Assembly (NCBI GenBank): GCA_017390825.1
Contig: JAFPAK010000067.1
Location: forward strand, 1 to 6,028
Source of the DNA: Clostridia bacterium
GTDB taxonomy: Bacteria; Bacillota_A; Clostridia; Oscillospirales; Acutalibacteraceae
DNA: 6,028 nt
Direction: 5' to 3'
Under the pieces are notes generated by a model. The model was not told where the DNA came from, ran no database searches, and saw only the letters and a program-made list of their open reading frames with translations. The translations under genes and the position numbers were made by a program. Of the stretch, positions 156-5,964 are shown piece after piece (position 1 is the first letter of the stretch; each line of letters starts with the position of its first letter).

Positions 156-1052
156 TTACAGAACATATTCTAATACCATAAGTATCACTTCTGCCACAGG
201 TGCCAAGAATTGAATACAAAAACCAATTTTTCTGAAACCTTTACGGCGTAAAGCCAAAGACGCAGCAATAGAGAACGGAGCAATCTGAGGAACACACAAA
301 TAAGCCTGATATATCCAATCGGGTCCTGTCGGGAATGCTTGAATAAAAATCGCTCCTATGTAAATAATGGGAAGAGCAAAAAGCATCACTGCAAAATTCA
401 ATGCTATGCCGATTTTATCGAGCACACCATATTCCACACCATCGCACTTTCTTACAAAAATCATGCAAAGAATAAGGGTTAAGATTCCAACAAGAGTCAT
501 CACTCCTGTATTTGTAGCATGAAGCCCGGAAAAACCAGTAAATTGAAATGTATTTTCAATTGGTTCAGGATACTCAAAGCTAACTATCTCGGCATCAAAA
601 ACAGCGGGCAATTCTGTTTCGTCGTATTGATAGCCATCTTTATCTTCTGCTTCAAGGGAGGGGGCTTCATTGCCTGATTCATACGAATCATTTTCCATAT
701 CACCCATAAGGTACGCATCATTTAAAAGGGCTACAATATAAAGCTTGTATCCATCTTTTTCGGCAATTGTGAAGCAACGATCACCATCGGTCTCGCCCTC
801 TACTTTATATGTGCCCTCGTAATATCTGCAAAGCGGGTCTACACCGTTAGCTCCAAATCCGGTGAAACGACTACTGTAAGCACCGTTTAGGGTTTTTATT
901 TCGCCGTCGAGTTTATAGGTTATTGAAAAATCAAAATCCTGTTTTGTTACAGTAGGCATTTTTTGCATAGAAACAAGCAAACCTGCCGCAATCGCAACAA
1001 TTATGCCAATGGCAATAATGATTGCCGGAATTCTTAAACTTTTACCTTTCAT
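156..1052 (-). CDS. Membrane protein of unknown function with acidic outer domain
   Basis: I do not recognise this 298-residue protein. It has one N-terminal hydrophobic helix (about 6-28), a large soluble region (about 29-180) and four C-terminal hydrophobic stretches (about 183-200, 211-240, 249-268 and 276-297). The soluble region probably faces outwards. It contains two cysteines (75 and 93) that could pair, and a strongly acidic segment at about 118-147 (DMENDSYESGNEAPSLEAED and on). The short N-terminus MKGKSLR is basic. The first helix has no clear lipobox, so it reads as an anchor rather than a lipoprotein signal. The start is ATG at 1052 with AAGGAG (1067-1062) nine bases upstream, preferred to a TTG at 1073 that has no such site. 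It begins 14 bases after the phosphotransferase gene and is followed by a paralogue. It may be the envelope part or the output of the switch; no function is claimed. Confidence 0.85.
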   Translation of the reverse strand: MKGKSLRIPAIIIAIGIIVAIAAGLLVSMQKMPTVTKQDFDFSITYKLDGEIKTLNGAYSSRFTGFGANGVDPLCRYYEGTYKVEGETDGDRCFTIAEKDGYKLYIVALLNDAYLMGDMENDSYESGNEAPSLEAEDKDGYQYDETELPAVFDAEIVSFEYPEPIENTFQFTGFSGLHATNTGVMTLVGILTLILCMIFVRKCDGVEYGVLDKIGIALNFAVMLFALPIIYIGAIFIQAFPTGPDWIYQAYLCVPQIAPFSIAASLALRRKGFRKIGFCIQFLAPVAEVILMVLEYVL

Positions 1053-1061
1053 AATGTCTAT

Positions 1062-1067
1062 CTCCTT
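1062..1067 (-). promoter_or_regulatory. Ribosome binding site fixing the membrane protein start
   Basis: AAGGAG on the coding strand, touching the stop codon of the phosphotransferase gene, lies nine bases before the ATG at 1052. It would fall inside the coding region if the TTG at 1073 were used, so the ATG is preferred. The N-terminus from this ATG also aligns without gaps to the neighbouring paralogue. Confidence 0.8.
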
Positions 1068-2245
1068 TAACAATCGAAGCAGAGGCTATCGATCTTGCCA
1101 AGAAGTTCAGCAAGTACCTCTTTGCATCTTGCAATCTTAGCAGGGCTATCGGCATCCTGCGGTCTGCGTATAGCACGGCGGAGCATACGAGTATAACCCA
1201 CAATCATCGCCTTTTCTTCCACGCTACGGCAAACCTCTTCATCCTCGGTGCCAAGATACATCTTCAAAACCAATCTCCAGAACTTTTCGGCAGTTTCATG
1301 GGTAAATCCAAAGAAATCAATGGCGGTTTGAGGATTAAGTTCGGAATAGCCAATAAAGGCATTTACCATAGAACCAAGTTCAAAGATGGGATGTCCCATG
1401 CACAAGGTATCCATATCGATAAGCAAGGGTTCGCCGTTTTGAACCATAATGTTATTGGTGTGGTAGTCTCCGTGCATAAGGGTGTTTTTCTTAGGAACAG
1501 CTTCAATCAAAGCACGAAGTTTTTTGCCCTGATCTTCAGGAAGATGTGCCTTAACAAAATCTGCCCAAGCAAGAGCCGTTTCCTTCATATCAGGAACTTC
1601 GCCGTCTTCCACTTCAATACTGTGGATGGTTTTGAGCATATCGATATAATATTTCGCCGCCTCAGACATATCATCGGGGTTATTGCGAATAAGCTTTGTT
1701 ACACTAACGGCATTAAGCAATTCGGTAACAGTACCGTAGCCATCATCTACACGAACAATTCCGTAAGGAATAGCGGTATTGATACCAAGAACAAATGCCT
1801 TTCTTGCGTTTTCGCGCTCCTGCTTGATTTCGGGAAGCGCGTCTTTGGCAAAATAGGTTTTGAGTATAGTTTCATCGTCATAACGATAAACCGCACCGTT
1901 CGCACCCTTTGCAATAAACTCGCAACCCTCAACGCTCATTCTTTGATATGCCTTTTCAACCGTAACCATATCGGTAAAGCCGGTCATATCGAACACTTCA
2001 TAAACATCCGAAGAAACATTGATGATGGCAAGTTTCGGTTCTTCTTTTCTAAGTCTTAAAATCACTCTAAGACCTGCGGAAGATATGTACTCCAGTTTAT
2101 CAGCGTCGATTACGGTATGCTTGTCGGGATTTTCATTCTTAATACTGAAAATTTTCTCCTCTGCTTCGGCCGCATTGGTAGCATCGATTCTGCCTTCCAA
2201 AGCAATATACAAAATATCTTTATCTATACGATAAGTAACGTTCAT
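1067..2245 (-). CDS. STAS domain fused to APH/choline-kinase-like phosphotransferase
   Basis: This 392-residue soluble protein joins two modules. Residues 1-97 are a STAS domain with EYISSAGLRV at 52-61; Ser56 is the likely phosphorylation site, and the motif is identical to that of the upstream STAS protein. Residues from about 105 to 392 form a protein-kinase-like phosphotransferase. Its nucleotide loop is KGANGAVY (113-120), the ATP lysine is probably Lys129, the catalytic loop is HGDYHTNN (258-265, base Asp260) and the metal-binding IDMD is at 276-279. All core residues are present, so it looks active. The family includes aminoglycoside, choline and other small-molecule kinases; the substrate cannot be read from sequence. 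The ATG at 2245 is preferred to an upstream TTG at 2272 because AAGGAG lies nine bases before it and four bases separate it from the preceding stop. The kinase may be gated by phosphorylation of its STAS domain. Confidence 0.9.
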   Translation of the reverse strand: MNVTYRIDKDILYIALEGRIDATNAAEAEEKIFSIKNENPDKHTVIDADKLEYISSAGLRVILRLRKEEPKLAIINVSSDVYEVFDMTGFTDMVTVEKAYQRMSVEGCEFIAKGANGAVYRYDDETILKTYFAKDALPEIKQERENARKAFVLGINTAIPYGIVRVDDGYGTVTELLNAVSVTKLIRNNPDDMSEAAKYYIDMLKTIHSIEVEDGEVPDMKETALAWADFVKAHLPEDQGKKLRALIEAVPKKNTLMHGDYHTNNIMVQNGEPLLIDMDTLCMGHPIFELGSMVNAFIGYSELNPQTAIDFFGFTHETAEKFWRLVLKMYLGTEDEEVCRSVEEKAMIVGYTRMLRRAIRRPQDADSPAKIARCKEVLAELLGKIDSLCFDC

Positions 2246-2249
2246 TGGT

Positions 2250-2816
2250 TTATTCTCCTTTTCCAAAAACAAGTTCTGTTAGCGTTTTATACTCAAGCCA
2301 TGCTGATGTATCGGACAAACGCTCGGTCAATTTTGCGATAGAGCGATAGTACCAAGCCTGCTCGTTCACATCTTTCTGATTAAATCGCTGCCACATTGTC
2401 ACGCCTTCCACCTTGAAATCACGGTAGATAGCACGCATATTGGCAAGCTTGTCGCCAAGCCATACCATAAGCACTGCGATGTCGTCTGTGTTTTTGAGCA
2501 CCTCAAGGGATTCTTCTTTGCGAATGCGCCAAGTATCACTTGGTGGCAAATCAGCTCGTTTATCCTCAGTTTCAGACTCAACAAGTTCTCTAACACGCTT
2601 TCCGAATTTTTCTTCAATTTCTTCGATGGTGATATCCGCATCCTCTACAACGTCGTGAAGAGCTGCGGCGGCAATCAAATTTTGATCATCGGTCATCGAG
2701 CCGACAATGACCGCCGCTTCCATGGGATGCAAAATATACGGAGCATCACTCTTTTTGCGACGCATTCCGTCGTGTGCTTTGACGGCAAATGCAATCGCTT
2801 CACTTACAAGTTCCAT
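2250..2816 (-). CDS. HD-domain hydrolase, small alarmone hydrolase-like (Rel/SpoT HD family)
   Basis: This 188-residue protein resembles the (p)ppGpp 3'-pyrophosphohydrolase domain of Rel/SpoT. The series AHDGMRRKKSDAPYILHP (14-31), ALHDVVED (52-59) and GDKLANMR (121-128) supplies His30, His54, Asp55 and Asp122 as metal ligands, Glu58-Asp59 as the catalytic pair and Asn126 as a nucleotide contact, all by alignment to Rel. There is no synthetase, TGS or ACT domain, and the length is close to that of Mesh1-type small alarmone hydrolases. The tail after about 140 (MWQRFNQKD, WYYRSI) is less familiar. It would probably lower (p)ppGpp in the cytoplasm, although another nucleotide substrate is possible. 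The ATG overlaps the preceding STAS stop by one base, and only a weak GGTGA lies upstream, so translation is probably coupled. The fold is clear; the substrate is inferred. Confidence 0.85.
   Translation of the reverse strand: MELVSEAIAFAVKAHDGMRRKKSDAPYILHPMEAAVIVGSMTDDQNLIAAAALHDVVEDADITIEEIEEKFGKRVRELVESETEDKRADLPPSDTWRIRKEESLEVLKNTDDIAVLMVWLGDKLANMRAIYRDFKVEGVTMWQRFNQKDVNEQAWYYRSIAKLTERLSDTSAWLEYKTLTELVFGKGE
2255..2260 (-). promoter_or_regulatory. Ribosome binding site fixing the STAS-phosphotransferase start
   Basis: AAGGAG on the coding strand lies within the last codons of the HD hydrolase gene, nine bases before the ATG at 2245. The alternative TTG at 2272 has no such site, so the shorter 392-residue protein is the better call. 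The overlap with the upstream gene points to coupled translation. Confidence 0.8.
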
Positions 2817-3112
2817 TATTCAATCACCAAAATATCGGCAAAGCCAGTCATTTCGAACACTTCCATAACCTCTTCGCAAACGCCGGTTACCTTCATAGAA
2901 CCGATCTTCTGCATTTTCTTTTGTGCCGAAAGAAGTACACGAAGACCTGCGCTGGAGATATACTCCATGCCTTTTACATCAAGAACGAGATTTTTGGTAT
3001 CTCCAATATCCTCGTTGATGGTTTTGTCCAGTGCGGGGGCGGTGATAGTATCGAGTCTGCCAACAATCTCGATGATGGTTTCAGTTTCGGTTTTCTTGAT
3101 TTCGATAGTCAT
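2816..3112 (-). CDS. Stand-alone STAS anti-sigma-factor antagonist (SpoIIAA/RsbV-like)
   Basis: This 98-residue cytoplasmic protein is essentially a single STAS domain, the usual size of SpoIIAA/RsbV proteins. In that family the unphosphorylated form binds the RsbW-type kinase and releases its partner; the kinase inactivates it by serine phosphorylation and a PP2C phosphatase restores it. The motif EYISSAGLRV at 50-59 matches the phosphorylation site, and alignment with RsbV points to Ser54. The C-terminal EVFEMTGFADILVIE is typical of the fold. The ATG at 3112 has AAGGAG (3127-3122) nine bases upstream, only 14 bases after the sensor gene ends, so the kinase domain next door is the obvious partner. 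The stop codon shares one base with the next start (TAATG), which suggests translational coupling. The acceptor residue is inferred from alignment. Confidence 0.93.
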   Translation of the reverse strand: MTIEIKKTETETIIEIVGRLDTITAPALDKTINEDIGDTKNLVLDVKGMEYISSAGLRVLLSAQKKMQKIGSMKVTGVCEEVMEVFEMTGFADILVIE

Positions 3113-3126
3113 AGTAGTAATCTCCT

Positions 3127-3534
3127 TTAAATTTTCTTAATCATAGTTAAAATGTTTTCGCCCTTTTCGTAGGCGTAAGTTACGGCATCCATCGTCTTCT
3201 TGGTAATGAAGATGCCGAGACCGCCGATTTCACGTTCTTCTGCCGAAAGAGTAATATCCGGATCAGGTTTCTTTAGAGGATCAAAAGGAATGCCTTTATC
3301 CGACATACGGAAGGTCACATCACGGCTTTGCTCATCAAAGCCAATATGAAGCGTCATATCACCCTCACTGTCGGGGTAGGCATAGCGAGCGACATTGACG
3401 AATACTTCTTCAATGGCTACACAAATTGCCATTTGGATTTTCATAGGGCATTCAAAACTTTCAAGGGTTTCTTCTACGAAACCGAGAACATCATTTAGCG
3501 ATTCGGTTTTTGCAGGGAATGTTTTATTCGTCAT
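3127..3534 (-). CDS. Possible internally initiated RsbW/SpoIIAB-like kinase (in-frame with the fusion)
   Basis: The last 135 residues of the fusion could also be translated alone. Residue Met811 is an ATG at 3534, seven bases after GGAGG, and the protein from there (MTNKTFPAKTESLNDV...) has the beginning and length expected of a stand-alone anti-sigma-factor kinase of the GHKL ATPase family. The phosphatase domain has just ended with DDITMLMFDYK, so the start falls exactly at the domain boundary. The ATP-binding N-box, the D-x-G-x-P element and the GGLG lid motif are all present, so the product should bind ATP. It would be soluble, unlike the membrane-bound full-length protein, and would change the kinase to phosphatase ratio. 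Whether it is actually made is inference from the start signal. It could instead be a relic of a formerly separate gene. Confidence 0.55.
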   Translation of the reverse strand: MTNKTFPAKTESLNDVLGFVEETLESFECPMKIQMAICVAIEEVFVNVARYAYPDSEGDMTLHIGFDEQSRDVTFRMSDKGIPFDPLKKPDPDITLSAEEREIGGLGIFITKKTMDAVTYAYEKGENILTMIKKI

Positions 3535-5964
3535 ACGCTCACCTCCTTTTTTAGGTTTATAATCAAACATCAGCATTGTAATATCGTCGAACTGGGGTGC
3601 TTCGCCAACAAATTCATCAATATTAGCTTTCAATGCCGGTAAAAGTTTTGTTGCTTCCACGGTTGCATTTTGGTTCATAAAGGTTAGGAGTCTATCCTCA
3701 CCATACAGTTTATTTTCTACGTTTGTAGCCTCTGGCACACCATCGGTATACAGAAACAATCGGTCACCCTCATTTAAGGTGATTTCACCCACACGGTAGC
3801 GAACACCCTCCATACCGGCAAGAACAAATCCTGCACGGGTTTTAAGATATTCAAACGAACCATCAGCACGCTTTAAGAGTGGCGGATTATGACCGGCATT
3901 GGCAAACTGCACGTTGCCTGTAGTCAAATCCAAAATTCCCATCCAAGCGGTAACAAACATACCCGATTCGTTATTTTCGCAAAGCTTTTCGTTTGCTTTT
4001 GTGAAAATATCGTTAACCGCCATACCGCTTTCTGCCAAGTCCTTGATGATAGTTTTAGCGGTCATCATAAACATAGCAGCTGGAATTCCTTTGCCCGATA
4101 CGTCTGCAGCAAGGAAAGCCACGGTTGTATCATTCAGCTTATAGAAATCGTAGAAGTCGCCACCGACTTCTTTTGCGGCAATCATTTCGGCATAAATGCT
4201 ATACTCCTCATTTTCGGGGAAGTTGGTAGGCAGAGCCGAAAGCTGAATTTGCTTTGCGTATTCCAGTTCTTTATCAATGCGGGCCGCCGCCTCAGCAATA
4301 TATCGTTTCAACGTGGCAACGGTGGAATTAATATCATCGGACAAGGATGCGAACTCTTCATTGGAGCGTACGTCAACAGTGGCATTCAAGTCGCCCTTTG
4401 TAATCTGTGCAAGGGTGTCATTTATTTTCTTTAGATTATTGATGATGACACGCTTGATTAGAACGTAAATAAACACGAACAGTGTCGCAAAAATAAGTAC
4501 CTGCATAAAAATGCTTGTCAGCATGGAAGCATCGCGCATAAACATCGCTTCTGCTTCCGGCATAGCTGCAATAATGCAATAACCCTCAACAAATTTGAAA
4601 ACGTACATATACCGAAGGCTTGCATCAGTTTTGCCGTCAACAACGTCTGCGTAGTAAAGAGCCGTAGCGGTTTTACCTTCTTTCATTTCAGTCGGAGGAT
4701 TAATACCTATGGTGGAAATTGGAAGACCTGCGTAATCATTGTCAATTACCATAGAAAGTGTTTCGTCGCAAACAGCAACGAAGCCGCCGGTACCTACGTG
4801 GCGATTTTTTGTAACGTCAACCACAAATTCGTCAAGCATTTCGTGGAATTGTTCGGCATCATATCCCACTTGAATAAATCCGCCGCTTTCTAAGTTGATC
4901 GCCGCATACTTTCTCCAAACGGATTCATCTTTTCCTCTTGGACTATATTCCTGAACAAAAGAATCCTGTGTTTTAAGCGTATCCACAAATTCCTTAGACT
5001 GTGCCTTGCTGTTCATATCGTAGTTGTTGATAACGTCCGCTTCGGTGGAATTTCTAATGATTCCGTTGGAGTCAACAACATTGATTTCTACAATTCCGTT
5101 ATGATCTGCAAGTGTCTTTAAGGAAATCGTAGAATTTTTTTCGTATTCTCGTTTAACCTTCTCAGCAATTTCAAGGAGATGGCGATTGGATTTTTCTTTT
5201 ACAGATGCCTCAACATCGTTGATACCAACCGTAAACAGTTCCTGCGTTTCAATCTGCGCCATTCCGTTTTGGAGAATTAGAGTAAAGGTGCTGGTGATCA
5301 GATAGGCGATTACAATACAGCTGAGCAATCTTCTTTGGAAGGTGTTGGCAATGCCCTCTGAAGTTTTCTTTCTGAAAAAGTTCTCGTGACTAAAGAGAGA
5401 TACCAAGATAATAGATATTCCGACTGCCACGGAATTACCAAGCATCATAGGTGCCGTGGCACTTTTGACAAACTCAAAGGCTCTGGAAGAATCATCCATA
5501 TTAGTCAGGAAGATCAGAATCATATGGATGACTTCGCATACAACGGCGATACAGATACCATAACTCCAAGTGGGCTTTTTGTTGTCAAACATCAATTTTC
5601 TAAGTCCTGCCGCCATAAGACCCGCAAGAATAGTGGCAATACTGCAAGCAAGTTGCGTGTAAACTCCTGCACCCCAATACACAGAGAACCAGCGGTAAAG
5701 TCCGCCAATAAGACCGGAGATAATACCGGCGGGTGCACCAAAAATAAGACCTGCTGATAATGGTGCCGCATCACGAACGTTCACTACTGTTCCCAGCATA
5801 TTCACTCCATAACTTGAAGCAAATGCAGAAACGCCGCCGAACAAAATACCGATAATTATCTGCTTTGCCATATATGGCATCTTTTTAGCAGGAGTATACT
5901 TATCTACCAGGTATACGGCTAGAACTAGAATACAGTTAAGTAATATTGGAACAATTAATCTCAT
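3127..5964 (-). CDS. Membrane sensor SpoIIE-family phosphatase fused to RsbW-type kinase
   Basis: This 945-residue protein appears to be the sensor and control element of a partner switch: the PP2C domain should dephosphorylate STAS antagonists and the C-terminal kinase should phosphorylate them. Residues 1-192 hold about six hydrophobic helices resembling the LytS-type 5TM receptor, including NVRDAAPLSAG (62-72) and glycine-rich GLIFGAPAG. A helix at 212-232, an outer region at about 235-475 (Cache-like, by position only) and a helix at 483-505 follow. A HAMP-like linker covers about 505-557. The phosphatase spans about 570-803 with VGGDFYD (600-606), ADVSGKG (620-626), TDGVPEA (740-746) and DDIT (793-796), so the metal-binding aspartates are present. 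The kinase spans 811-945 with N-box EEVFVN (852-857), SDKGIPFDP (888-896) and GGLGIF (914-919). The ATG at 5964 has AGGAGG seven bases upstream. Such fusions exist in the family; the ligand is unknown. Confidence 0.93.
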   Translation of the reverse strand: MRLIVPILLNCILVLAVYLVDKYTPAKKMPYMAKQIIIGILFGGVSAFASSYGVNMLGTVVNVRDAAPLSAGLIFGAPAGIISGLIGGLYRWFSVYWGAGVYTQLACSIATILAGLMAAGLRKLMFDNKKPTWSYGICIAVVCEVIHMILIFLTNMDDSSRAFEFVKSATAPMMLGNSVAVGISIILVSLFSHENFFRKKTSEGIANTFQRRLLSCIVIAYLITSTFTLILQNGMAQIETQELFTVGINDVEASVKEKSNRHLLEIAEKVKREYEKNSTISLKTLADHNGIVEINVVDSNGIIRNSTEADVINNYDMNSKAQSKEFVDTLKTQDSFVQEYSPRGKDESVWRKYAAINLESGGFIQVGYDAEQFHEMLDEFVVDVTKNRHVGTGGFVAVCDETLSMVIDNDYAGLPISTIGINPPTEMKEGKTATALYYADVVDGKTDASLRYMYVFKFVEGYCIIAAMPEAEAMFMRDASMLTSIFMQVLIFATLFVFIYVLIKRVIINNLKKINDTLAQITKGDLNATVDVRSNEEFASLSDDINSTVATLKRYIAEAAARIDKELEYAKQIQLSALPTNFPENEEYSIYAEMIAAKEVGGDFYDFYKLNDTTVAFLAADVSGKGIPAAMFMMTAKTIIKDLAESGMAVNDIFTKANEKLCENNESGMFVTAWMGILDLTTGNVQFANAGHNPPLLKRADGSFEYLKTRAGFVLAGMEGVRYRVGEITLNEGDRLFLYTDGVPEATNVENKLYGEDRLLTFMNQNATVEATKLLPALKANIDEFVGEAPQFDDITMLMFDYKPKKGGERMTNKTFPAKTESLNDVLGFVEETLESFECPMKIQMAICVAIEEVFVNVARYAYPDSEGDMTLHIGFDEQSRDVTFRMSDKGIPFDPLKKPDPDITLSAEEREIGGLGIFITKKTMDAVTYAYEKGENILTMIKKI
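3541..3547 (-). promoter_or_regulatory. Internal ribosome binding site at the phosphatase-kinase junction
   Basis: On the coding strand the bases read AGGAGGT, followed after seven bases from GGAGG by an in-frame ATG at 3534. This is as strong as the site before the first gene (5972-5977). It lies inside the long reading frame, encoding Gly-Gly, where no start signal would be needed if only the fusion were made. Confidence 0.75.
3547..3552 (-). other. A6 homopolymer at the gene-fusion hinge
   Basis: Six consecutive A residues on the coding strand encode Lys805-Lys806, just after the phosphatase domain. One more A would make translation stop at TGA (3541-3539), after the AGGAGG and four bases before the kinase ATG. 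One fewer A would make it stop at TGA (3533-3531), overlapping that ATG in an ATGA arrangement. The tract length therefore decides between one fused gene and two tandem genes. It could be a natural variable site, a slippage site or a base-calling error. Confidence 0.6.

Follow-up and report, generated by a model that had tools for sequence, protein, structure and literature searches.

Does an open reading frame that carries a complete ribosome-binding site and start codon at the border between two enzymatic domains encode one protein or two? The question is raised by a gene of a gut bacterium that joins a membrane phosphatase to a kinase and lies in the window, by which is meant the whole analysed stretch of 6,028 nucleotides (Table 1). 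From comparison with related sequences, we consider it likely that the one frame yields two products: the membrane phosphatase-kinase and a free RsbW-like kinase of 135 aa, the latter started internally.

Domains and junction of the fused gene

The Pfam matches of the fused frame contain no receiver domain at the N-terminus, the 5TMR-LYT domain standing in that place. The phosphatase is of the SpoIIE/RsbU PP2C type, with a score far above the cut-off of 25, and the kinase domain is of the RsbW/SpoIIAB type, matching HATPase_c_2 with 80.5 bits over profile positions 1-127 of 127. Solved relatives of the kinase at E ≤ 0.01 are SenB (9qih, 2e-7) and, weakly, RsbW (6m36, 0.0018). The Pfam order of PP2C and then kinase domain within a single protein is that of the HsbR/CrsR type.

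Table 1. Positions of the features within the window
Feature	Position	Strand	Basis
Fused ORF of 945 aa for the membrane phosphatase-kinase (long product)	3127..5964	-	Open frame; Pfam domains; fused likewise in 40/40 clade rows
5TM-5TMR_LYT membrane sensor domain, residues 26-188	5401..5889	-	PF07694, 95.7 bits
HAMP-like segment, residues 503-553	4306..4458	-	PF00672, 21.8 bits, below the Pfam cut-off of 25
SpoIIE/PP2C phosphatase domain, residues 612-802	3559..4131	-	PF07228, 167.3 bits
A6 run, not conserved	3547..3552	-	At least A6 directly before G in 13/40 clade rows
Internal Shine-Dalgarno sequence AAGGAGGTGA of the kinase	3539..3548	-	-15.2 kcal/mol; column statistics
Internal kinase start codon ATG	3532..3534	-	Start kept in 36/40 rows
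Nested kinase reading frame, 135 aa (predicted short product)	3127..3534	-	Complete HATPase_c_2 match, fused residues 816-943
STAS protein of 98 aa, on which both activities probably act	2816..3112	-	PF01740; RsbV and SpoIIAA among solved relatives
HD_4 domain gene	2250-2816	-	Shares one base with the end of the STAS gene
STAS domain fused to APH-like kinase domain	1067-2245	-	PF01636; STAS part with ISSAGLR
ORF of 305 aa, last gene of the run	156-1073	-	ATG at 1052; no Pfam match at E 0.001

Positions 3552-3531 of the minus strand read AAAAAAGGAGGTGAGCGTATGA, with the A6 run at 3552-3547, GGAGG at 3546-3542 and the kinase ATG at 3534-3532, so that GGAGG and ATG are separated by 7 nt. The sequence-only reading that preceded this analysis had described a run of six A followed on the coding strand by GGAGGTGAGCGTATG, with the frame open into the kinase, and the 945-aa ORF bears this out. 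Its account of the shifted frames was equally correct upon reading the sequence: one additional A leads to TGA 3541-3539 and a phosphatase of 808 aa, and one A fewer leads to TGA 3533-3531 and a phosphatase of 810 aa. The geometry of a tandem gene pair that it had recognised at the junction was confirmed too, with a ribosome-binding site far above chance, and a split form does exist among the relatives (P0126). The three explanations that it had offered for this geometry, a recent fusion through a homopolymer change, slippage making both forms and a base-calling error, are mostly contradicted by the relatives.

Were the frame to slip or shift within the A run, a separate phosphatase and a separate kinase would be produced besides the fusion. 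Such a run is not conserved in the relatives, as at least six A directly before G are present in only 13 of the 40 rows of the clade to which the window belongs, and the codon bias presented below persists in the 27 rows without A6. The codons ahead of the Shine-Dalgarno (SD) sequence vary among the clade rows (CAA AAA, TAT CAA, CGC AAA and AAA GAA). Stops in the other two frames are frequent across this ORF: of the codon positions scanned, 64% and 76% have one within 48 nt, and the two stops near the A6 run are therefore ordinary. In favour of slippage, P0126 has a one-base-shifted end, and the linkers of L017 (DNA, with AAGGAGG retained) and P0134 (protein only, with Thr at the start position) resemble one-base shifts restored further downstream, the fused frame being kept in both. 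These two apparent shifts indicate that indels occur at the junction and that the fused frame is kept or regained. Judged by the relatives, the A6 run looks incidental and conserved slippage at it is unlikely, which leaves room at most for rare slippage in this strain; that slippage produces separate proteins from this gene is in our opinion very improbable.

Age and spread of the fusion

Scoring in the protein search for relatives was restricted to the phosphatase region, so that fused proteins gained no advantage, and the best 120 of 8000 scored candidates were listed. The kinase domain PF13581 is carried by 119 of these 120, the exception being P0126, and fused proteins 98-100% identical over the searched region were found on other contigs. 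In the scan of genome contigs the best 80 of 153 relatives were kept, and loci from whole-genome searches were added, giving a starting set of 145 sequences (the window and 144 loci). From these, 45 lacking an adjacent phosphatase and kinase match and 6 identical copies over that stretch were removed. The remaining 94 non-identical adjacent phosphatase-kinase loci are fused in 87 cases and split in 7.

A quick maximum-likelihood tree places the window within a starred clade whose 40 rows are without exception fused, with identity reaching down to 68.2%, and the next row, L111 (60%), is fused too. Over the whole tree the distribution of fused and split states takes 4 changes, the 7 splits occupying a different sector of 25 rows. 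Since all 40 clade rows and L111 are fused, the fusion is, by this comparison, old in the lineage of the window, which contradicts the recent fusion by homopolymer change that had been put forward. From a tree that has no root, and in which 31 of the 91 inner branches are open, we infer that a phosphatase gene and a kinase gene once stood in tandem and fused long ago. A base-calling or assembly error that conceals a truly split gene, also suggested earlier, would agree with the single split protein among the 120 listed near phosphatases. The 119 fused ones, the nearly identical fused proteins on other contigs and the fusion in every clade row speak against such an error, to which we give practically no credence.

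The split P0126 has 809 aa and ends in KQKKEVSI, the frame that is expected with one A fewer, and the KQKK linker is also present in the fused proteins P0112, P0121-P0123, P0128 and P0150. Known from the protein alone, the shift in P0126 is either a mutation or a sequencing error, and it shows that such one-base shifts occur.

Relatives above 80% identity were observed in only 3 of 136 genomes of one genus-level group and 2 of 70 of another, and the close relatives (L001-L035; genomes G001-G005 and G074) were found in bins of differently named groups. This patchy distribution may reflect either transfer or mixed bins. A scan of viral contigs found no relative.

Conservation of the internal SD and start

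Of the 40 clade rows, 31 have ATG as the kinase start, 4 have GTG and 1 has an ATG one codon later; L011, L016, L032 and L035 have lost the start, so that it is dispensable in some. The SD of the kinase is the strongest of six starts scored in the window, the fused gene having -10.8 kcal/mol and the four downstream genes -8.0, -5.8, -8.0 and -8.0 kcal/mol. Over all rows the kinase start is 2nd of 942 columns by mean SD energy. Among the 31 Met-conserved columns, defined as having Met in at least 20 rows, the kinase Met displays a mean of -11.3 kcal/mol, the first Met of the gene -10.9 and the next best -4.7. SD-like stretches elsewhere in the ORF reach -8.7 at 89-90 columns upstream and -8.2 at 208, without a conserved Met at either place.

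An in-frame start with an SD of -9 kcal/mol or lower was observed at the junction in 23 of the 40 rows, where windows of equal size from other parts of these ORFs predict 0.2, and an SD of -6 or lower in 34 against 3.5. Local RNA structure at the junction is low, ranking 112th of 927, and is not exceptional. SD and start are concordant in 37 of 40 rows, both being present in 34 and neither in 3 (Fisher p 0.004, uncorrected for kinship). Pairing the losses of start and SD on the tree yields 4 pairs only, 1 of them on starred branches, and has no power.

In the 47 other fused loci the SD signal is weaker, with an SD of -9 or lower in 8 against 2.0 expected and of -6 or lower in 18 against 9.6, and the internal start is missing in many fused loci outside the clade. 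The fused relatives L040, L044, L041 and L111 (53-60% identity) also carry, at the junction, an in-frame start with an SD of -8.5 to -13.1 kcal/mol. Comparison of the junction across relatives had been proposed beforehand, with loss of the ribosome-binding site named as the refuting outcome. The site was instead kept in most relatives, which points to internal initiation, a possibility absent from the options of the sequence-only reading.

The motif at the junction was matched in 179 of 182 listed proteins, and among these 179 the two glycines are kept in 177 and 173, Met in 172, with Val in its position in 5, and the residues around the glycine pair, three preceding and two following it, in 111-159. 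The frequency of Gly-Gly in near relatives, and the location of the site exactly at the domain border, would suit an SD-like linker that serves as a translational pause for domain folding, or a Gly-Gly linker kept for its own sake, with the Met merely an amino acid. The concordance of start and SD in 37 rows is not what a pause would call for, since pausing requires no start codon. The GTG in 4 rows and the lack of the site in many other fused loci also count against these readings. The synonymous bias reported in the next section opposes any reason purely at the protein level, and we consider a pause or linker quite improbable.

Synonymous codon choice at the junction

The codon tests were performed on the 40 fused rows of at least 65% identity (lowest 68.2%), a level that no split row reaches. 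L035 is gapped at the start column, where column tests consequently have n=39, and the other 47 fused loci entered only the tree-wide comparison of the junction and the observed and expected SD counts. At fourfold-degenerate sites the median pairwise agreement is 0.36 against 0.27 expected from composition, so close that silent sites are near saturation. Synonymous codons were shuffled by each gene's own usage.

The observed SD at the junction is -10.38, against -7.87 (sd 0.36) for the synonymous shuffles. Its excess strength is the 4th of 930 columns, the three ahead of it all lying at the gene's own start; all columns share one tree, which makes this ranking a fair control for kinship. None of the 500 shuffles reached the observed SD, be it in all rows, in a clade of 33 rows, in the 18 rows at 86% identity or less, in the 36 rows with a start or in the 27 rows without A6, and a longer anti-SD left the outcome unchanged. 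A subclade of 7 rows showed no codon bias, 389 of 500 shuffles being as strong as the observed SD there, though the start is kept. The codons of the linker glycines rank 2 and 4 of 59 in conservation, which is high and not unique.

Internal SD and start are thus conserved beyond the constraint on the protein, with the exception of the 7-row subclade, and the best reading of these comparisons is that the ribosome-binding site and start of the kinase are kept by selection and are not debris. That they are instead leftovers without present function, from genes fused through the loss of a stop, is favoured by split relatives with a ribosome-binding site at the same place (7 of 94 loci). A relic would also fit the subclade without codon bias and the loss of the internal start, which affects four rows of the clade and many fused loci beyond it. 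The SD stands despite nearly saturated fourfold sites and synonymous choice favours it, and a relic is accordingly judged unlikely. Selection for the internal start appears reasonably probable to us: a full tandem-gene ribosome-binding site and start would be maintained within the fused ORF, so that one mRNA gives both the membrane protein and a free kinase of anti-sigma type, and initiation sets the ratio of kinase to phosphatase.

The probable STAS partner and a model with two products

In all 39 clade rows with a contig reaching that far, the match to the STAS gene starts 15-23 nt past the end of the kinase match; in the remaining row, L010, the contig ends 5 nt past the kinase match. The STAS protein matches the structures of RsbV and SpoIIAA and carries an ISSAGLR stretch, which we take to surround the serine that is phosphorylated in RsbV/SpoIIAA. 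No sigma factor was found within the window.

The two-product reading, as the best reading, rests on the conserved fusion, the ribosome-binding site with its start, the synonymous bias and the adjacent STAS gene. Ribosomes starting at 5964 would make the membrane-bound phosphatase-kinase, and other ribosomes would bind AAGGAGGTGA in the linker and start at the ATG at 3534, releasing the free 135-aa kinase. The STAS protein of the next gene downstream would be the substrate of both, one domain removing phosphate and the other adding it, and the free kinase would raise the ratio of kinase to phosphatase and provide a diffusible pool. The membrane phosphatase-kinase and the free kinase would in this manner share one STAS substrate in a partner switch, and we infer internal initiation in cells as well as the stoichiometry and the enzyme activities.

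Further along the run, a second STAS domain with ISSAGLR is fused to an aminoglycoside-phosphotransferase-like (APH) kinase domain, and this protein, too, may be targeted by the switch. Among relatives, the HD_4 gene is missing from some, displaced in others and found at the same position in others again.

Database annotation and significance

At least 120 kinase-only proteins were listed, mostly from short contigs, and 110 of 120 have 134-135 aa and begin with Met. Near relatives listed from longer contigs are called as fusions of 944 or 945 aa. The 135-aa database proteins were not counted as split genes because most lie on contigs of 2 kb or less (judged by eye), on which a gene finder may choose the internal ATG. 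Six kinase-only proteins on contigs above 3 kb (P0183, P0207, P0211, P0246, P0288 and P0295) could be real splits.

If the two-product reading is true, annotation gives one protein where two exist, and the databases already disagree. It would also mean that the fusion of domains and the separate supply of one of them coexist under selection in a phosphorylation switch. An SD and start at a domain border, together with synonymous bias, would be a simple signature for finding further such genes.

Comparison with known systems

In Bacillus, RsbU/RsbW/RsbV and SpoIIE/SpoIIAB/SpoIIAA are separate proteins with a sigma factor as target. The present locus employs the same three domain families and differs in the fusion of phosphatase and kinase and in the absence of a sigma factor from the window.

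Internal in-frame initiation is known from other pathways, and the short form of CheA is one such product. Cas11b is made within cas8b from an internal in-frame start (PMC11899642). According to the accessible part of that source, the likeness lies in a C-terminal part of the ORF made separately from an internal Met, and the difference in the pathway and in the evidence, the short product being shown there and the evidence here being comparative. Extended SD motifs were reported to be important in Staphylococcus aureus, in the part of the study available (PMC13009471).

HsbR/CrsR of Pseudomonas aeruginosa and Shewanella oneidensis combine, in the text available, a PP2C domain and a kinase/anti-sigma domain and have a STAS-type partner (PMC6482189). 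The order of phosphatase and then kinase/anti-sigma domain in one protein is shared with the fused gene, whereas their N-terminal receiver domain is replaced here by 5TMR-LYT and a HAMP-like segment, and an internal start goes unmentioned in the available text. SypE of Vibrio fischeri, as far as the accessible text describes it, likewise joins a serine kinase and a serine phosphatase in one protein that controls a STAS protein (PMC10120452), with the order kinase, receiver, phosphatase in SypE and phosphatase, then kinase here. Among the open-licence papers listed, judged by titles and abstract openings, no report of a PP2C-kinase fusion with an internal kinase start was found. Proteins joining a PP2C to a kinase have precedents, as do internal in-frame starts, and this gene would combine the two.
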